From positions 1-41,981 of IMG/VR virus record IMGVR_UViG_3300031238_000156: DNA of 41,981 bases, one strand, 5' to 3'. Made by a program: the position numbers and the translations under genes. This stretch comes from a virus. This document shows, one piece after another, positions 10,676 through 31,329 of this stretch; the first letter of the stretch is position 1, and each line of letters opens with the position of its first letter. The notes under the pieces are model-generated. The model was not told the DNA's origin, did no database searches, and worked only from the letters and a program-made list of their open reading frames with translations.

Positions 10676-11905
10676 TTATGTACTTTTCTTCCAACCTTTA
10701 TATTGTCTGTACGCGCCACTATGGACAGAACTCATAGAGGCTTGGTCGAGTCCATGTTCTCTACAGAATTGCGTTAGATTATTCGTATTGTAAGTGATAC
10801 CGTTTGGATCGATGAAATTGTATTTTGGTTTTGGGGCTTCCTGGGCCAAACTTGACCAACCGCTATGCGTTCGCTTTTTACCGGTGTTCACTTTTGCCAT
10901 TCCAGAGTAATCAAGACTATGCTCGATGCAAAAATCTTTCAGTTTTGAAATGTCTCTGTATTCGGTGCCATCGGGAGATCGAAAGCCAGCGCATTGATAT
11001 TGTTTGAGAACTTGTGGCGGGTATTTTTGCCAACCGTCGTGTATACTTCTTCTCTCAAAAGCGACATCTGACATTGCTTTGGCATCAAGATTATGTTCTC
11101 GACAAAATGCGCTTAGATTGACAACTCTATGAATTTTTCCTTCTGGGTCTGTAAACTGGTAACGTGCCTCTTTTTCTGGGAGAGGTGGATAGCGCTTCCA
11201 GCCTTTGTGACTTGCAACTTTTCCTTGTGCGACGCAACAGAGCGCTGAGACGAGCAAACCATGTTCTTTTGCGAAACGCGTAAGATTTTTTACATCTTGA
11301 TAGATCGTTCCATCAGGAGCAATAAAGCCAGGGTACGTTTTTGCCTGGGCAGATTCTTTTCCCTTCCAATAGGCAAGTTTTTCGTGAGCCTCTGGCGTAG
11401 AAGTCGCTCTTTTGATACTCTCGCTGCGCTTTCTTCGCTCTTCTTGCGTATGAATGCGACCGGCATTAACAGTTTTGAGATGTTCAAATTTACCTTGCTT
11501 AACAAGTTCTTTTGCAAGTTTACTCCTTCTTGCTCTCCATTCTTTATCTCGAATATATCCACTTACACCTTCGCCACCAAATGTTTTATTGACCAGGGGC
11601 CATTTGTACACGGCTCCAAGATCGATGAACAACTTCTCTAGACTAAACGCGGCCTGTTCTGTGATGCCATCAGCTATTTTGACTTTGGTGATATTTCTTC
11701 CCTCGCGCCATTCTTTACGAATAATGCGGCAGGTAAGATGTTTGCACGTAGCGTGCTTTCGAGCGCAGTATTCGTGGCCGTCTATTCTCTTTTTACATCC
11801 TTTCCCAATATAAAAAGGCACAGTGCTTTCTCCTCGATAGAAAAAGTAGACATAAAAGATTGGTTCTGTGCGCATAATGCGCTTTTGTGCTATACTTGTA
11901 CTCAC
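10676..11905 (-). CDS. GIY-YIG homing endonuclease with four C-terminal DNA-binding repeats
   Basis: 409 residues, GTG start at 11905 chosen because GGAGG lies 9 bases before it. The N-terminal GIY-YIG nuclease is visible as FYVYFF ... FYIGKG (about 17-37), followed by conserved Arg/His positions and the domain-closing region with LVNKTFGGEG. After a basic NUMOD-like linker (about 145-175), four repeats of about 55 residues follow; each has F-x-x-P-[DE]-G-x-x-[YH], a helix like LTxFCREHGLD, and a closing GW, as in intron-encoded nuclease repeats (IENR1/NUMOD1). It is antisense within a tail-gene block and is probably a free-standing homing gene that spreads into phages lacking it. Confidence 0.88.
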   Translation of the reverse strand: MSTSIAQKRIMRTEPIFYVYFFYRGESTVPFYIGKGCKKRIDGHEYCARKHATCKHLTCRIIRKEWREGRNITKVKIADGITEQAAFSLEKLFIDLGAVYKWPLVNKTFGGEGVSGYIRDKEWRARRSKLAKELVKQGKFEHLKTVNAGRIHTQEERRKRSESIKRATSTPEAHEKLAYWKGKESAQAKTYPGFIAPDGTIYQDVKNLTRFAKEHGLLVSALCCVAQGKVASHKGWKRYPPLPEKEARYQFTDPEGKIHRVVNLSAFCREHNLDAKAMSDVAFERRSIHDGWQKYPPQVLKQYQCAGFRSPDGTEYRDISKLKDFCIEHSLDYSGMAKVNTGKKRTHSGWSSLAQEAPKPKYNFIDPNGITYNTNNLTQFCREHGLDQASMSSVHSGAYRQYKGWKKST

Positions 11906-24809: not shown

Positions 24810-24857
24810 CACAGTGGTGGGGAGAGAAAAATCTCTCCCCACTAATGGGGATAATAC

Positions 24858-25821: not shown

Positions 25822-26171
25822 CGAATAAAGCGCATTTGAATCCTGGCGAGATGACCAGATTTATCACGATACAAAAACCGGTAGACGCTCCTGATGGTGC
25901 GGGTGGAGAGACACGCACCTGGGCTACCTTTATTCGTGTATGGGCAAGTGTGGAGCCCAATTCTGGTTCAGAGACCTATTTTGCGCAACAGCTCTATCCT
26001 AAAGAATCCTATACCGTACAAATCCGCTATAAGACCGGCGTCGTTCCTGGTATGCGTATCGTGCTTGGTTCGCATATCATGCGCATCCATAGCATCATTG
26101 ATCTTTATCAGGAACACGCATTTCTCAAAATGAACTGTGAAGAACTGCAAGCAGAAGGGGCGGTGCACTAA
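25818..26171 (+). CDS. Head closure protein (head-tail adaptor, SPP1 gp16/HK97 gp7 type)
   Basis: 117 residues. The pattern LNPGEMTRFITIQKPV, DGAGGETRTWATFIRVWASVEPNSGSETY, TYTVQIRYKTG-like and MRIHSIIDLYQEHAFLKMNCEEL is the beta-barrel head-closure family: an R-I-T-I-Q start, a W-x-x-[VR]-[WA]-A-x-[VI] strand and an I-R-Y strand. It plugs the connector after packaging and joins head to tail. ATGA overlap with the connector and TAATG overlap with the next gene show tight coupling. Confidence 0.85.
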   Translation: MTNKAHLNPGEMTRFITIQKPVDAPDGAGGETRTWATFIRVWASVEPNSGSETYFAQQLYPKESYTVQIRYKTGVVPGMRIVLGSHIMRIHSIIDLYQEHAFLKMNCEELQAEGAVH

Positions 26172-26539
26172 TGCTTGAAGGATTAGACGCTGTTCTTGCG
26201 GCGCTCGACGCGGAACTGATCAAAGTCCAGCAGGGGGCAATGGAAGTCGTAGATGACACGGTCAACACTTGCACACAATTGTCGATTGATTATTGCCCTG
26301 TTGGCAAAACCGGACGGTTGCAACAAGCAATTACTAGCGATCCTGCAACACAGGTAGGAGACACGATTGTGGGCGCGGCTGGCATTCCTGATGGTGCTAC
26401 GACCTACCAAAACTTTGTCCACTTTGGTCACTTCACACGCAATCATCGCTCTTTCGTACCAGCCAATCCGTTTATCTCGCGTGCCTTTTTTGAGGTACAG
26501 CCAAGCTTCTTTTCGGACATGGAATCAATCGATCTTTAG
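26171..26539 (+). CDS. Tail-component protein, HK97 gp10-like
   Basis: 122 residues. It begins with a helical segment (LAALDAELIKVQQGAMEVVDDTVN), then CPVGKTGRLQQAI, which is the signature P-V-[RD]-T-G-x-L motif of the gp10 family, then VGAAG ... YQNFVHFGH and the FVPANPFISRAF end. These are typical for neck/tail proteins located between head closure and tail terminator. It follows the closure gene with a TAATG overlap. Confidence 0.85.
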   Translation: MLEGLDAVLAALDAELIKVQQGAMEVVDDTVNTCTQLSIDYCPVGKTGRLQQAITSDPATQVGDTIVGAAGIPDGATTYQNFVHFGHFTRNHRSFVPANPFISRAFFEVQPSFFSDMESIDL

Positions 26540-26548
26540 GAGCACACT

Positions 26549-26950
26549 TTGGGCACAGCAACGCAACAGATACAGCAGGCGGTTTATGGCGTTCTTTCTA
26601 CGGACGCCGCGCTACTTGCGCTGGTGCCTGGAATGTACGATGAAGTGCCAGAAAACAGGACGTTTCCGTATCTTGTCCTGGGGGATGCCACTGAGACACC
26701 ATTGGATACCTTTGCACGTAAGGGGCGCATTGCCACCATTACGGTCTCCATTTATTCTATGCAGAAGGGTTTCAAAGAGTCGCTCACTATTGCGGATCGA
26801 GTAGATGTGCTGCTCAATCGCAATAGCTTTAACCTCTCTACCTACGATACGGTTTACACGATGTATAAAATGCTTTCGACGCAACGTATGGGTGATGGGC
26901 TGACCAGAAAAGTAGACATCAAGTATGACGTATTTGCTGAGGAGCGCTAG
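26549..26950 (+). CDS. Tail terminator/completion protein (DUF3168-type), copy 1
   Basis: 133 residues with a rare TTG start (TTG GGC) after TTAGGAG. The sequence IQQAVYGVLSTDAALLALVPGMYDEVPENRTFPYLVLGDATETPLDTF ... ITVSIYSMQKGFKE is the DUF3168 pattern: an N-terminal helix, P-x-x-x-P-Y-[IV] strand and W/Y-S strand. It should cap the tail tube during assembly. Close paralog directly downstream. Confidence 0.82.
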   Translation: MGTATQQIQQAVYGVLSTDAALLALVPGMYDEVPENRTFPYLVLGDATETPLDTFARKGRIATITVSIYSMQKGFKESLTIADRVDVLLNRNSFNLSTYDTVYTMYKMLSTQRMGDGLTRKVDIKYDVFAEER

Positions 26951-27361
26951 GTGGGAACGGCCACGCTTCAGCTTCAAGAGGCTATTTATGCGTTTCTGGA
27001 GGCTGATACTTTCTTCGCTGATCACGGTTGTGCTGTCTATGATGAGGTGCCTGAAAACGCTGCATTCCCCTTCCTGGTGCTCTCAGACGGCATGGAAACA
27101 CCGCAAGATGTCTTCTCAGAAAAAGGGCGGTTGACGATCTTCAATATTCATATCTGGAGTATGGCGCAAGGGATGGAGGAAATGGAGGTGTTGTTTAACC
27201 GCGTGGACGAACTCTTACATTATAATTCAGCGCTGCCAGCGATGCCAGGATACGTGTTCATTTATGGGAAGCGAGACACGATGACCGTTCAGCGTGATAC
27301 TGATGGTCTCACGAGGCATCTGGTGGCGCGTTACGTTTTTCTTAGCGAAGAACGAATCTAG
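26951..27361 (+). CDS. Tail terminator/completion protein (DUF3168-type), copy 2
   Basis: 136 residues. A GTG start abuts the previous stop with no gap. It shares MGTAT at the start, DEVPEN-x-x-FP-[YF]-LVL and ETP-x-D-x-F with copy 1, and the same length and order of elements (YDEVPENAAFPFLVLSDGMETPQDVF, IHIWSMAQGMEE). Most tails need one terminator, so the second copy may serve a different interface. It ends 3 bases inside the minus-strand cassette. Confidence 0.82.
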   Translation: MGTATLQLQEAIYAFLEADTFFADHGCAVYDEVPENAAFPFLVLSDGMETPQDVFSEKGRLTIFNIHIWSMAQGMEEMEVLFNRVDELLHYNSALPAMPGYVFIYGKRDTMTVQRDTDGLTRHLVARYVFLSEERI

Positions 27362-27891
27362 CGTTGAAAGACTTCCTCATCATAGTGTTTCTGGATGGCC
27401 TCTCGGTAGAAGCGCACCACATCTTGTGAGATGGGCGCGAAGTGATGACAGTCCACTCCCACATTCAGGCTATTCACTTTTACCAGTTGCTTCTCGTGAA
27501 TATGTCCAAAGAGGGAAAAGATGCCTTGTGGACGATGACTTGGTTCGTGTACCAGGGCAATATGTTGAAGATCAAGCGTAAGCATGAGGCAAAATTCTTT
27601 ATAGATAGCGTAAAACGTTTCGCGCAGGGTATCGAGCGTGACCAATCCTTTCTCCAGATCATCTCGCTCATAGTTGCCAAAGAGTAGAGCGATGTCGCCA
27701 TTTAGACGACGGCTCACATTGTAGTTACCAAAGTCTCCCAGATGATAGACGAGATCGCCTGATTTGACCTGGGCATTCCAGTTGGCAATCATGGCCTCAT
27801 CCATCTCTTCAACACTTTGGAAAGGACGACGCGACAGATCAAGTGTGCGCTTGCTGCCGAAATGCGTATCTGCGGTATAAAAAATGTTCAT
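27358..27891 (-). CDS. Calcineurin-like metallophosphoesterase
   Basis: 177 residues. Metal-site motifs in order: DTH (D8, H10), LGDFGN (D53), GNYE (72-75), HEP (H115) and GHIH (129-132). The family's GNH is GNY here, so the usual catalytic histidine is replaced by tyrosine; activity may be altered. It overlaps the kinase-TIR stop codon by TAATG, with AGAGGAG upstream inside the kinase gene, so it is translated from the same mRNA. Substrate unknown; nucleotide or phosphoprotein phosphatase are both plausible. Its 3' end touches the 3' end of the tail terminator copy 2 (convergent). Confidence 0.88.
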   Translation of the reverse strand: MNIFYTADTHFGSKRTLDLSRRPFQSVEEMDEAMIANWNAQVKSGDLVYHLGDFGNYNVSRRLNGDIALLFGNYERDDLEKGLVTLDTLRETFYAIYKEFCLMLTLDLQHIALVHEPSHRPQGIFSLFGHIHEKQLVKVNSLNVGVDCHHFAPISQDVVRFYREAIQKHYDEEVFQR

Positions 27892-29243
27892 TAAAATTTC
27901 TCCTCTAGGACTTGATAGACGGTCAACCCAATCTCATTGAGCGCTTCGTCGCTGTAGCCGCTAGAACGTACAATTGGTTTGCGGTCCCTTGGGCCACCTG
28001 CATAATTTTTGAGGTAGAGATAGTTTTTTCCCCACTCACATTGTTTTCCATAGATAGGAACAACGAGTACTTCATCACGGTGATTGGTACGGTACTCAAT
28101 GGCTGTGTTCACAGCTTCGCTCGCATATTCGTTGGTAAGGATTGCCGGAGTACAGACAACCAGAATAATGCCGCTCTCGCGCATGATGCGTTCTACTTCT
28201 TTCACTGTTGGTGCGATGTATTCACAGGCAATGGTTTTGCCACGCATTTTTCCAACCAGGACAATTGATTTCTCAAGACGTTCCAAGAGCATTTTATCCT
28301 TCTCGGTTTTGCCGTCTAACATGGAGGAAATGAGAAACACGGTGGCATCAGCCTTTGGTGCGACAATCATTGGATTGCTGCGATAGTCATCGCGAATGCT
28401 GAGCAGTCGTGCCTGGACAGCGAAACTATCAGGTCGGTTCGCCTTGTCCAGCGTAATCATTTCTTCCACTAAGCGATTGAGACGCAGAAGCGCTGGATGT
28501 GTTACCTTTGGTAGTGACACAAACTGAAATGGGGCATCAGAAGGATCAGTGCCACTGAGTAAAAAATGAAAGAGCGCGCCAAGTGCATAGACATCACTCT
28601 TTGGTTCAGAGCCCTTTTTGTACTGCTCAGGGGCCGCATATCCAGGCGAGCCAAGAGCGCTGGTATCTTTGGTGTTGGCCGCAAAGAAGCGTGCAATCCC
28701 AAAGTCGATCAGACGTACTTCGTCCTCTGGCGTAATCATGATATTGGCTGGTTTGATATCGCGAAAGGTGATATTTTGAGTATGCAAGAAGGTGAGTACA
28801 TCGCAAAGCTGTGGGCCATAACGTAGCAGCGCAGCCAGATCAGGCGTGTGCATTACGTCTTCAAGCGTTTTGCCTTCGATATATTCCATTGCCAGATACC
28901 AACGTCCGTTTTCCGTGAAGTTCTCGTAGATAGCAGGTAGCATTGGATGACGAAGGTTTCCAAGTAGGCGCGCTTCATTTTTAAATGCGGTGACCGCTTT
29001 TTGATATTCCAGTCCAACCAGCGTGCTCTGGCTCATCTCTTTGATCGCAACGACACGATTGATGGTGCTATCCAGCGCTTTGTAGACGGCTCCCATACCA
29101 CCTTGTCCAAGAACACCAGTGATGAGGTACTTTCCAGCCAGGATACCGGTGAGATTTCCTGTGGCGGTAAGGGATGCACCGCACGTTTGACAATATTTCG
29201 CGGTTGCGCGTGCGGTTGTGGCACAACCAGGACAGGCGATCAT
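27891..29243 (-). CDS. Zinc-ribbon / Ser-Thr protein kinase / TIR-like fusion
   Basis: 450 residues, AAGGAGA before ATG. A zinc ribbon (CPGC ... CQTC, residues 4-21) is followed by an intact Hanks-type kinase (about 38-285): glycine loop GQGGMG (46-51), lysine K68 in VAIK, FRDIKPAN with D162 and N167, DFG (D180), and APE-like PGYAAPEQY. From about 300 to 450 is a TIR/SEFIR-like alpha-beta domain: VFLISSMLD, IVLVGKMRGKTIAC, ILVVCTPAILTNEYASEAVNTAI, VLVVPIYGKQCEW and LKNYAGGP. E376 or E372 may be the NADase glutamate. No transmembrane segment is present, so it is a soluble kinase. The combination suggests an infection-sensing switch; this is an inference. Confidence 0.88.
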   Translation of the reverse strand: MIACPGCATTARATAKYCQTCGASLTATGNLTGILAGKYLITGVLGQGGMGAVYKALDSTINRVVAIKEMSQSTLVGLEYQKAVTAFKNEARLLGNLRHPMLPAIYENFTENGRWYLAMEYIEGKTLEDVMHTPDLAALLRYGPQLCDVLTFLHTQNITFRDIKPANIMITPEDEVRLIDFGIARFFAANTKDTSALGSPGYAAPEQYKKGSEPKSDVYALGALFHFLLSGTDPSDAPFQFVSLPKVTHPALLRLNRLVEEMITLDKANRPDSFAVQARLLSIRDDYRSNPMIVAPKADATVFLISSMLDGKTEKDKMLLERLEKSIVLVGKMRGKTIACEYIAPTVKEVERIMRESGIILVVCTPAILTNEYASEAVNTAIEYRTNHRDEVLVVPIYGKQCEWGKNYLYLKNYAGGPRDRKPIVRSSGYSDEALNEIGLTVYQVLEEKF

Positions 29244-29265
29244 ATTTTTCTCCTTACATGCATGA

Positions 29266-29290
29266 AAGAGACGGCGCTTTACCGTCTCTT
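29266..29290 (-). terminator. Hairpin between the NUDIX and kinase genes
   Basis: A 9-bp stem CCGTCTCTT/AAGAGACGG with a 7-base loop lies just after the NUDIX stop and before the kinase ribosome site; the minus-strand sequence after it is TTTCATG. Possible partial terminator or mRNA processing element. Confidence 0.55.
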
Positions 29291-29305
29291 CTTTGTTTGA
29301 ACTTC

Positions 29306-29887
29306 TTAGGCAGCGCAGCGCGCCTTTAAGAAGGTGTATCCGATTAGTGTACCGCTATAGCGGCATTCCAGCATCATCTCTAGGGGTATCCACACGTTTT
29401 CTCCTGCCTCGCCCATCTCTTCGTTCATGTCTTTACCAGGAGTGATTCCGGTGACATCAGCGGTGTAGAGATATACCTGCTCGTTGGTCTGTGTACCGGT
29501 GATATATTTGGTTAAGAGCTCCACTTCGCGGATTACGTAACCGGTCTCCTCTAACACTTCGCGGATGGCGCAGGCGTCAATGCTTTCGCCGTCGTGGTCG
29601 ATACTTCCGGTCACCGGACAGCCGTAGTAATGAGAGTAGTCGGCACAGAGTGGCTGACAACGCAGGAGCACTTCGGTGCCGTTGTTACGGGTGAGGAGAA
29701 TACCAACGCTGTCGCGCCCACGACGCTCGGCGTAGGTGAAACCACCAGCCGTTTTATAAAGCGCAATCCACTTTGCGTCATGCACAAGGATTTTATTACT
29801 ATGCACCACAACCTGTTGTAGAAGCTTTTGCATGCTTTCCTGCGTATACTGCTGTCTTTTGTTCTTTTTATTTCTATGTTTGCCCAT
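29306..29887 (-). CDS. NUDIX hydrolase
   Basis: 193 residues, AAGGAG before ATG. A basic N-terminal extension (KHRNKKNKRQQ) of about 35 residues precedes the fold. The Nudix box is near 94-117: SIDHDGE ... REVLEETGY, i.e. E101, R109, E110, E113, E114 and G116 in canonical spacing; the box's leading G position is S95 (preceded by G94). The region before it (GCPVTGS) fits the usual P-x-G-G start. These enzymes hydrolyse nucleoside diphosphates linked to another moiety, e.g. NADH, ADP-ribose, NTPs or caps. Next to a TIR-type domain, a role in NAD or ADP-ribose turnover is attractive but inferred. Confidence 0.87.
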   Translation of the reverse strand: MGKHRNKKNKRQQYTQESMQKLLQQVVVHSNKILVHDAKWIALYKTAGGFTYAERRGRDSVGILLTRNNGTEVLLRCQPLCADYSHYYGCPVTGSIDHDGESIDACAIREVLEETGYVIREVELLTKYITGTQTNEQVYLYTADVTGITPGKDMNEEMGEAGENVWIPLEMMLECRYSGTLIGYTFLKARCAA

Positions 29888-29908
29888 TTGTTTGTTTCTC
29901 CTTGAATG

Positions 29909-29960
29909 TTTCGTTTATTTCTTCTACAGGAAGTATACGTCATTCGAGAGGAAACGTCAA
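29909..29960 (-). promoter_or_regulatory. Promoter and conserved leader for the NUDIX gene
   Basis: On the minus strand TTGACG (plus 29955-29960), 17 bases, TATACT (plus 29932-29937), then a 29-base block (29909-29937 including the -10) that recurs at 30664-30692 with a single mismatch. Ends shortly before the AAGGAGA site. Confidence 0.8.
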
Positions 29961-29963
29961 GGG

Positions 29964-30281
29964 TTATTTCTCTGTATTTTCAGAAACAGCTTCCTTTACG
30001 GCAGTGTAGGTTACATCGCAGTTGAGGTTAAAGAGTTCATTGTTGATCACGAGTAGTAGCATAGGGATGTAGCAGCGCCCCAGGAAAATGAGGGCAACGC
30101 TATCTCCCCACCGCAGGTAGTCATGGAGTTGGTTGATAATATCTGCTTGATCTATTTCTTCGTCAGGGGCATAGGTATTTTCAAAGAAGAGAAAGTTGGG
30201 ATCGAGTTGTTCTTGTAGATCTTCCTCGATACAATCGCGATGTTCTTCGTGCAGGCGCACGCCAAGTGAGATAGCTTTCAT
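29964..30281 (-). CDS. Small acidic hypothetical protein
   Basis: 105 residues with a strong CTGGAGGA ribosome site 6 bases before ATG. Acidic, with a single hydrophobic helix (about 61-82, DSVALIFLGRCYIPMLLLVI) that could be a buried helix or a membrane segment. It lies in the minus-strand accessory cassette and its 3' end abuts the NUDIX promoter. Not recognised. Confidence 0.55.
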   Translation of the reverse strand: MKAISLGVRLHEEHRDCIEEDLQEQLDPNFLFFENTYAPDEEIDQADIINQLHDYLRWGDSVALIFLGRCYIPMLLLVINNELFNLNCDVTYTAVKEAVSENTEK

Positions 30282-30326
30282 GCTGGTTCCTCCAGGTGTT
30301 GAATATAGGTTTCGTTATGAAAAATG

Positions 30327-30349
30327 GCCTCTCTTATAAAAAGAGAGGC
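30327..30349 (-). terminator. Terminator after the 30366 gene
   Basis: GCCTCTCTT / AAGAGAGGC with a 5-base loop. On the minus strand the hairpin is followed by CCATTTTTCA, giving a T run. Confidence 0.65.
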
Positions 30350-30365
30350 GCTGGACTGTTTTCTA

Positions 30366-30638
30366 TTATCGTGCACTTCTGCACAGGGCTTGAGCTTCTT
30401 TATAGATGGCACGAGCGGCCTCGCTGGATGCGTCTTTGATAATACGCTCGAAGTAACGGGCGCGCTCGCTTGCGTGATTGCTATAACGGTCGCTAGACAG
30501 TGCGCGTGCGATTTGTGCGCAGGCTTCGTTGTGCTCTTTGGGCGCGTCTTGCGCGAAACTTGCCAGGAAGAAGTAATCACGAATGCTGTTCAGGCTTGCC
30601 GGATTCAGGTCGAACTCTATTTTGAAAGTTTTGTTCAT
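30366..30638 (-). CDS. Small hypothetical protein, first gene of the accessory cassette
   Basis: The ATG at 30638 is chosen over upstream starts because CAAGGAGA precedes it at the same distance as for the NUDIX gene. 90 residues, helical, rich in Ala and Arg, with no membrane segment (MNKTFKIEFDLNPASLNSIR ... AIYKEAQALCRSAR). It is transcribed from its own promoter. Not recognised; its promoter match to the NUDIX gene argues that it is part of one regulon. Confidence 0.6.
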   Translation of the reverse strand: MNKTFKIEFDLNPASLNSIRDYFFLASFAQDAPKEHNEACAQIARALSSDRYSNHASERARYFERIIKDASSEAARAIYKEAQALCRSAR

Positions 30639-30663
30639 TTTTTTATTTCTCCTTGAATTTTGT

Positions 30664-30715
30664 TTTCGTTTATTTCTTATACAGGAAGTATAGCCTATCG
30701 TGCGTTTTACGTCAA
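30664..30715 (-). promoter_or_regulatory. Promoter and conserved leader for the 30366 gene
   Basis: On the minus strand TTGACG (plus 30710-30715), 17 bases, TATACT (plus 30687-30692), then the 29-base block (30664-30692) nearly identical to the NUDIX leader. It lies about 47 bases from the divergent plus-strand promoter at 30762. Confidence 0.8.
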
Positions 30716-30761: not shown

Positions 30762-30790
30762 TTGACGCGGGGCCAATTCTCTGCTAGTAT
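30762..30790 (+). promoter_or_regulatory. Promoter candidate for the tail tube genes
   Basis: TTGACG (30762-30767), 17 bases, TAGTAT (30785-30790). It is divergent from the accessory cassette and followed by two long hairpins. Confidence 0.5.
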
Positions 30791-30814
30791 AAGGGGTATC
30801 CACCTGTAAATAAC

Positions 30815-30868
30815 ACAAAAAAGAGAGAATTTGGAAATCGCAATCACCCCAAATTCTCTCTTTTTTGT
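30815..30868 (+). terminator. 20-bp perfect inverted repeat in the tail tube leader
   Basis: Bases 30815-30834 exactly complement 30849-30868, with a 14-base loop. The right arm contains CTCTCTTTTTTGT, so it can act as a terminator on the plus strand and its mirror on the minus strand. Confidence 0.7.
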
Positions 30869-30870
30869 AC

Positions 30871-30933
30871 CTCAAAGAAAAATCATCATGAAACAAAGAA
30901 AACGCAAAGACGAGATGATGATTTTTCTTTGAG
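30871..30933 (+). promoter_or_regulatory. 19-bp perfect hairpin overlapping the tail tube ribosome site
   Basis: Bases 30871-30889 exactly complement 30915-30933 (25-base loop). The right arm ends in CTTTGAG, and TTGAGGAG (30929-30936) is the ribosome site of the gene at 30946, so folding would partly hide it. Confidence 0.65.
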
Positions 30934-30945
30934 GAGTTGCACGAT

Positions 30946-31329
30946 ATGACCGCAATTGCAGGCTACGCCGGAAGTGTAAAAATTTCCACAAACGTCGTTC
31001 TTGAGATCGACAAATGGGATCTCAGTATTGACGCCGACATCTACGATACTTCTTCCTTTCCTAACGCCTGGAAAACCCAAATCCCAGGACTCAAAAAATG
31101 GTCTGGCTCTTTCAGTGGTCGTCAATACCAGGGAGACAGCACCGGACAGGCGCTTATACAGGCCGGACTCTTTGGCGGTACCAGCATTGCTCTTGCGCTC
31201 TTCACTGATGGGACGCATAACTATTCGGGAACCGCATTTATCAAGCAGATGAGCGTGAAAACGGCAGTTTCCGCAACAGTCGATGTATCCATATCCTTCG
31301 AGGGTAGCGGCACATTATCGTATACGTAA
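30946..31329 (+). CDS. Tail tube protein, shorter copy
   Basis: ATG at 30946 supported by GAGGAG; 127 residues. The core WDLSIDADIYDTSSFPNAWKTQIPG ... WSGSFSG and the ending SATVDVSISFEGSGTLSYT match the longer gene downstream. This is the pattern of phage tail tube or major tail proteins: a beta sandwich with D-x-x-x-[YF]-D and W-x-G-[ST]-F. Shorter than typical (about 130-200 aa), and the downstream gene has an N-terminal extension of about 90 residues. It stacks in hexamers to form the tube. Confidence 0.72.
   Translation: MTAIAGYAGSVKISTNVVLEIDKWDLSIDADIYDTSSFPNAWKTQIPGLKKWSGSFSGRQYQGDSTGQALIQAGLFGGTSIALALFTDGTHNYSGTAFIKQMSVKTAVSATVDVSISFEGSGTLSYT

Follow-up and report, generated by a model that had tools for sequence, protein, structure and literature searches.

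What does a cassette of five genes do when it points against the structural genes on either side of it, inside the tail module of a phage? The question is raised by a 41,981-base stretch of viral DNA (positions 1 to 41,981 of IMG/VR virus record IMGVR_UViG_3300031238_000156; here, the window), in which five minus-strand genes lie between a tail terminator and the tail tube, one of them encoding a protein kinase with a TIR-like C-terminus. The window aligns at about 99.9% or better, reversed, to positions 142,029-184,099 of G001, a 327,295-base phage contig that contains all of it. A preliminary description of this DNA had taken the set for an NAD-type effector with a kinase switch, a phosphatase and a nucleotide hydrolase. 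Its anatomy holds up (zinc-ribbon kinase, TIR fold, TAATG overlap, NUDIX gene, moron position), whereas the NAD effector and the phosphatase of the kinase are unsupported, and scans able to reach close relatives did not find the set elsewhere. The answer that we tentatively prefer is that the cassette is a host-takeover or counter-defence module, in which the kinase is steered by a pseudo-TIR domain.

The C-terminal domain of the phage kinase

The kinase-TIR fusion is a 450-amino acid protein (27891-29243, minus strand) with a zinc ribbon, a kinase domain at about residues 34-290 and a TIR region at about residues 300-450. The pseudo-TIR domain itself (residues 301-450; 27894-28343, minus strand) is, by profile, alignments and fold matches, a real but divergent TIR. 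Its match to the Pfam TIR_2 model, at 0.01, is below the cut-off. A profile of nine standalone TIRs, built without the phage row, matched the phage C-terminus at an E-value of 1.2e-11 (41 bits), against 0.59 for the best of 2000 shuffles and 0.2 for the next best of the 398 open reading frames (ORFs) of G001; because the phage sequence had served as query to retrieve eight of the nine rows, this E-value makes the link look better than it is. With the phage row included, the profile matched TIRs in the PDB, Cat1 first at 1.2e-8, and the phage C-terminus alone matched no PDB TIR. When a model of the isolated domain was compared with known structures, Foldseek placed TIRs at ranks 1-4 and VIA-align gave Z scores of 10.7 to RPS4 and 10.1 to Cat1. 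The best matches of the predicted structure are TIR folds and not some other fold, although the confidence of the model is low.

The catalytic centre of a TIR NADase is not apparent in this domain. In Cat1, the site comprises S7, H8, N9, N10, D33, S68 and E74, together with K121 and Y122 of the next TIR domain (PMC12162218, in the part of the paper available). A gapless alignment over 17 columns pairs Cat1 SNEYLKSDWCWD-E74-LEQA with phage TPAILTNEYASE-A377-VNTA, which puts A377 on E74; the catalytic Glu column holds Ala377 in some alignments and a gap in two others. Six residues of the WxD/BB-loop stretch are also missing, the equivalent of D33 included. Judged by alignment, the phage domain therefore has neither the helix C Glu nor the WxD/BB-loop Asp of the TIR NADases. 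E372 and E376, which had been put forward as catalytic residues, do not fall on the Glu column in any alignment that we made, so the proposed NAD-consuming effector is unsupported. Among 25 related TIRs, chosen by similarity to the phage TIR, 22 keep the Glu. The alignments strongly suggest that the phage TIR is without this residue; the domain looks catalytically dead, and, given the additional loss in the WxD/BB-loop, NADase activity is not expected. With its enzyme residues seemingly lost, the domain is more likely to dock on or sense host immune proteins than to destroy NAD.

The kinase and its chromosomal relatives

The remainder of the fusion protein looks like an active Ser/Thr kinase (Pkinase, 2.6e-40) preceded by a zinc ribbon (C4, C7, C18, C21), in agreement with the preliminary description. 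The Hanks-type motifs are all present (G46-G48-G51, K68, E90, F160-R-D162, N167, D180-F-G and A204-P-E206), and K68, E90, D162, N167 and D180-F-G are invariant across a 28-row kinase alignment. The HRD motif reads FRD, as it also does in the host kinases inspected for comparison. In the AlphaFold2 model, residues 34-290 mostly have predicted local distance difference test (pLDDT) values of 70-95, with lower values at 181-200 and 241-250. The best relatives are zinc-ribbon kinases of Chloroflexota, at 46-52% identity in eight genomes from the class of G285, an 8.9 Mb Chloroflexota genome that was sampled from the phylum to which the Anaerolineae locus L033 belongs; the first two kinase rows of a wide genome scan stood at 41 and 43%, calculated with a different program. 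In a 49-row tree, the phage kinase has a long branch and groups with the kinases of the G285 class, which account for 35 rows (support 99/93); L216, L178 and L171 were dropped from this tree as copies, kinases of other collections were limited to 12, and the bootstrap had not settled. The host of the phage is probably a member of the Chloroflexota. Kinases of 54 phage records match as well, with query residues 7-318 covered at most among the 25 matches listed, and in a scan of viral_contigs four contigs (L004-L007) matched in the kinase alone.

We also looked for TIR domains of this type in genomes. At a threshold of 0.05, the C-terminal query matched 18 of 400 Chloroflexota genomes (best 3.1e-6) compared with four of 299 Pseudomonadota genomes (best 0.0026), and at 0.01 it matched 13 of the 47 genomes of the G285 class. 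Four named Chloroflexota genomes gave no TIR match, and neither did a wide genome scan with the C-terminal domain. When genomes were scanned with the full kinase sequence, the best 80 of at least 592 relatives gave no C-terminal match better than 0.041, and that one lay outside the kinase frame; the chromosomal fusions described below, which were found later, show that these C-terminal and whole-kinase scans miss distant ones. One TIR scan of viral_contigs found a single relative (L137), and another found none.

Two kinases of G285 have a TIR-like C-terminus, although one of them matched no better than 0.0037. A profile built from this pair of C-termini had matches in 10 genomes among the 47 of that class. 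Four of the ten (G130, G271, G114 and G138) gave weak matches in ordinary-TIR frames, and the match in G250 (L206), a 244-amino acid open frame without a kinase, was left out. Full open frames number six, in five genomes (G285 twice, G278, G346, G327 and G340: L204, L205, L207, L208, L209 and L214), and comprise a zinc ribbon, a kinase, a TIR-like region and a further C-terminal region. Four of them matched the standalone-TIR profile at 7e-10 or better; L214 reached only 0.0031 and L209 gave no match at 0.01, and these two count as TIR-like through the family profile. Their Glu column reads V, A, Q, N and V, with one gap, and contains Glu in none. The six chromosomal kinases group in a single clade (98/100) that excludes the phage kinase, but a common clade was not rejected (p-AU 0.366). 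With a profile of the six TIR regions, the phage protein scored -0.4 bits and ranked 162nd of 1514 rows when placed among shuffles, and direct BLASTP of the phage TIR against the host kinase-fused TIR L178 gave no match. Either the fusion and the loss of Glu would have arisen twice, or divergence of the phage copy has been extreme. Visual inspection of the surroundings of one chromosomal fusion revealed neither a phosphoesterase nor a NUDIX gene. The literature that we searched (titles and the starts of abstracts, with few subscription papers reached) yielded neither a bacterial kinase-TIR fusion nor a phage pseudo-TIR, and the chromosomal zinc-ribbon kinase-TIR-like family, for which we found no published name, appears to be new.

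Insertion into the tail operon, and the other genes of the cassette

G001 encodes a protein with a Terminase_6C domain (near 261 kb, outside the span of the window), DNA polymerase III alpha, a ParA-type ATPase and a thymidylate kinase, and has 11 tRNAs; with its length, these features make the window most likely a piece of a jumbo phage. The G001 terminase has a relative in G285 (49% identity, E 3.6e-127) and matches in 12 of 301 genomes at 1e-5. Ten G285 prophage proteins around this terminase match window proteins at 24-43% identity, their partners in the window including, by PHROGs assignment, the head maturation protease, major head protein, head-tail adaptor, Neck1, tail terminator, major tail protein and tape measure. 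In the prophage, the terminator gene (6922388-6922825) and the tail tube gene (6921979-6922383) are 4 bp apart and the cassette is absent, so the cassette is an extra in an otherwise tight operon. The order of genes is not fully that of the window, since a Neck1-like gene (like that at 26171-26539 of the window) is placed elsewhere in the prophage.

The cassette also appears to have promoters of its own. Two minus-strand copies of TTGACG-N17-TATACT lie at 29932-29960, 44 bp before the NUDIX gene, and at 30687-30715, 48 bp before the gene for a 90-amino acid protein. The promoter-consensus scan by itself gave nine sites against 6.2 in shuffles, which is no clear excess. By the strict pattern TTGACN-N17-TATACT, however, G001 has 26 copies, as opposed to a mean of 0.05 and a maximum of one in 20 dinucleotide shuffles, and the cassette carries two of the 26. 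On a wider list of 30 sites, these two stand alone between positions 122,094 and 187,557 of G001, a span that holds the whole window, which suggests that the cassette is expressed apart from the head-tail genes. It is probably transcribed from the phage's own sigma-70-like promoter, separately from the late tail genes, and we infer that this occurs early. An empty site in a related prophage, at a junction of 4 bp in a contiguous operon, and predicted promoters for independent transcription on the cassette strand are what would be expected of a phage moron, the position assigned to these genes in the preliminary description. In the span of 27358-30715 that the description gave, the last coordinate falls on base one of a -35 box, and no gene ends there. 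At 30762-30932, a plus-strand promoter-like TTGACG-N17-TAGTAT is followed by two hairpins (20 pairs with a T run at 30815-30868, -26.4 kcal/mol; 14 pairs at 30876-30928) immediately before the ribosome-binding site of the tail tube gene, which may mark a place where late transcription starts anew or a small RNA is made.

On its left, the cassette is flanked by the second (26951-27361, plus strand; phrog_176) of two tandem tail-terminator genes, whose end overlaps the end of the phosphoesterase gene, and on its right by the tail tube (major tail protein) gene (30946-31329, plus strand; phrog_1407, Phage_tail_2). The first terminator gene (26549-26950, plus strand; phrog_176) and the second (26549-27361 for the pair) are 41% identical over nearly their whole length, and one match was seen in the related prophage. 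All five cassette ORFs are present on the minus strand, and each has GGAG 6-10 nt upstream of its ATG. The metallophosphoesterase (177 amino acids; 27358-27891, minus strand; phrog_547, 8e-37) follows the kinase gene with a TAATG overlap, the kinase stop and the phosphoesterase start sharing 27891. Adjoining the kinase gene on its other side is that of a NUDIX hydrolase (193 amino acids; 29306-29887, minus strand; Pfam NUDIX, 2.3e-14). The kinase gene has no promoter-pattern site of its own, and the 62-bp gap after the NUDIX gene holds a hairpin (-16.6 kcal/mol). The other two products are orphans. The 105-amino acid protein (29964-30281, minus strand) reached only 0.0019 (16 bits) with PADLOC PDC-M20A and had no Pfam, PHROG or NCBIfam match; a scan of viral_contigs with it returned the same phage only. 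For the 90-amino acid protein (30366-30638, minus strand), listed as 117 amino acids from an earlier ATG, the inner ATG was chosen, which a ribosome-binding site precedes; it had two Pfam matches below the cut-off, at 0.028 and 0.091, and nothing in PADLOC, PHROGs or NCBIfam.

The phosphoesterase has the usual metal-binding motifs (D8-x-H10, G52-D53, G72-N73, H115 and G129-H130-x-H132), and its Metallophos_2 match of 8.4e-6 falls just under the cut-off. It matched in six of 400 Chloroflexota genomes. The NUDIX box of its neighbour reads ESIDACAIREVLEETGY; the nearest NCBIfam models are YtkD (3.4e-5) and AdpP (3.6e-5), both far below the cut-off, and the nearest PDB sequence is the ADP-ribose pyrophosphatase MutT (1e-4). 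NUDIX genes are given for 45% of jumbo phages in the available text of PMC9503650.

Whether these genes act together is less certain. Scans of viral_contigs with the kinase-TIR fusion, the phosphoesterase, the NUDIX hydrolase and the 105-amino acid protein (the 90-amino acid protein was left out, and single-protein scans reach close relatives only) found the full set nowhere outside this phage, so the conserved co-occurrence predicted for it was not seen. A possible, though rather unlikely, alternative to a joint counter-defence module is that the five genes are unlinked morons acquired independently, the kinase rewiring general host physiology and the enzymes serving nucleotide housekeeping, with no common pathway. 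The phosphoesterase has relatives in four other viral contigs (41-49% identity; two of the four have a second, weaker copy next door), and in the 10-kb loci around them (L028-L031) the other four cassette proteins had no match at 0.01; the 90-amino acid and NUDIX genes are each preceded by a promoter, hairpins lie between the genes, and the scans produced no second genome with the set. Independent acquisition does not readily explain why the kinase and phosphoesterase are translationally coupled, or why all three contigs of this phage (the window, L003 and G001) keep the block whole. The absence of matches to the other four proteins at L028-L031 also leaves unsupported the earlier proposal that the metallophosphoesterase is the phosphatase of the kinase. 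We dropped it as a phosphatase partner, as its best PDB match, aq_1665, reached only 0.022 and no other cassette protein was found at those loci.

The three contigs represent the same phage, the cassette in L003 and G001 being >99.9% identical to that of the window. Over 11,635 bases, the window and L003 differ at five, all clustered in the kinase-TIR gene on a segment of 280 bases (28164-28443), and the same five differences are found in G001. Two alter the protein, L281I at the end of the kinase domain and V294A in the linker before the TIR; the cluster may be a small recombination tract or a variable spot. Elsewhere, the centre of a hairpin at 24818-24842 is AAAA in the window and TTTT in G001, either an inverted centre or an assembly effect, and near 11400 the window is missing about 90 bases that are present in G001, bounded by repeated GTGAGCCTCTGGCGTA. 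The window had no Rfam match. Other loci of G001 encode a 441-amino acid protein with RRXRR (1.9e-69) and HNH domains (L014:11112-12437; G001 111112-112437), a make-up that we take to be that of an IscB-type nuclease, and a helicase with an apparent intein (L023:9279-11855; G001 289279-291855), for which Intein_splicing reached 2.4e-8, just below the cut-off, and PT-HINT 1.9e-9. At L018 and L022 (G001 190-200 kb and 262-278 kb), several proteins share, by eye, a repeated N-terminal motif like GRHDQRTHGNRF or YNPHHDHLGRFSTAGEAH and form a multi-copy family.

Possible roles of the cassette and comparison with known systems

Under the counter-defence reading, the cassette, as an insertion among the tail genes of a jumbo phage, would supply a kinase whose pseudo-TIR docks it on TIR-bearing immune complexes of the host; alternatively, the pseudo-TIR could sense ADP-ribose-type signals. 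The docked kinase would then phosphorylate and disable host proteins, while the NUDIX hydrolase and the phosphoesterase might act on nucleotide signals or by-products. Precedents exist for both halves of the fusion: an early kinase of phage JSS1 phosphorylates and disarms several defence systems and needs its second domain to do so (PMC12345140, available in part, which presents the disarming of defence by phage kinases as a recent finding), and inactive TIR-class domains are reported to bind nucleotides as sensors (PMC9503650, likewise in part). Docking or sensing, a counter-defence purpose and joint action of the five genes are what we infer from this combination.

Several observations weigh against such a role. 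Foldseek matches are mixed from rank 5, with unrelated proteins among them, and type II dehydroquinases reach a VIA-align Z near 9.2. The isolated TIR model, from three sequences, has a mean pLDDT of 54.4, and in the full-length model the TIR part is below 54 in every block of ten residues. Three of the 25 other TIRs (L112, L116 and L120) also have no Glu, and, were helix C shifted, E376 could still come close to the catalytic column. A single phage, whose host is a probable assignment, is the only known carrier of the cassette, and there is no direct sign of the kinase meeting a TIR protein.

Two further explanations start from defence. The cassette could protect a prophage, the kinase-TIR protein sensing another phage and arresting the cell by phosphorylation, as has been proposed for defence kinases such as PD-T4-6. 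PADLOC models of PD-T4-6 match the kinase domain (best 3e-56), a ParA-type gene is present on the contig, and the closest relative that we found is a prophage in a chromosome. However, the match is confined to residues 34-244 of 450 (profile positions 6-221 of 292), kinases of other PADLOC systems match as well, and no active effector domain is present; we consider superinfection exclusion or defence of this kind unlikely. The original proposal, in which the kinase switches a TIR NADase effector and the phosphatase and NUDIX hydrolase exert control, has the TIR fold in its favour but is very improbable, and we set it aside on the active-site alignments: the Glu column holds Ala377 or a gap, the WxD/BB-loop stretch is shortened, and the six chromosomal kinase-fused domains have no Glu where 22 of 25 other TIRs keep it.

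A bolder extension of the counter-defence reading, which we consider doubtful, is that Chloroflexota run TIR-to-kinase signalling through dead kinase-fused TIRs and that the jumbo phage assembled a dead-TIR kinase of its own out of host components in order to enter this pathway. MyD88-IRAK is the animal link between TIR and kinase, and signalling by dead-TIR kinases would be its bacterial counterpart. A phage dead-TIR kinase and a chromosomal family with the same loss in the likely host class suggest that bacterial TIRs can serve as docking or sensing parts for kinases, beyond their role as NADases. According to the available text of PMC9503650, viral genomes contain TIR domains relatively infrequently.

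The protein shares features with several known systems. The chromosomal fusions have the same order of zinc ribbon, kinase and TIR and likewise no catalytic Glu, but they carry an extra C-terminal region where the phage protein ends at the TIR, their kinases form a clade of their own (one shared with the phage kinase is not rejected), and their TIR profile gives the phage TIR no signal above shuffles. Cat1 and other TIR NADases share the fold of the phage domain, Cat1 being the best PDB match of the TIR profile that includes the phage row, whereas the equivalents of D33 and E74 are missing from the phage protein. PD-T4-6 has a Ser/Thr kinase domain in common with it, the match being to that domain only, with no TIR in the matched stretch. 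GAP1-N2 systems, as described in the available part of PMC7159879, resemble the cassette in pairing an active, zinc-ribbon-fused kinase with an adjacent phosphatase gene, although that phosphatase is a PP2C and not a metallophosphoesterase and none of the five cassette products matched a GTPase family; the same text mentions GUN4 proteins with kinase or TIR domains. A further parallel is with T7 gp0.7 and JSS1_004, likened here without comparison of the kinase sequences. These are phage protein kinases with a second domain needed for counter-defence, and a second domain is present here as well; theirs is a host shut-off domain, whereas that of the jumbo phage is a pseudo-TIR. Those kinases are expressed early, as the kinase of the jumbo phage probably would be.

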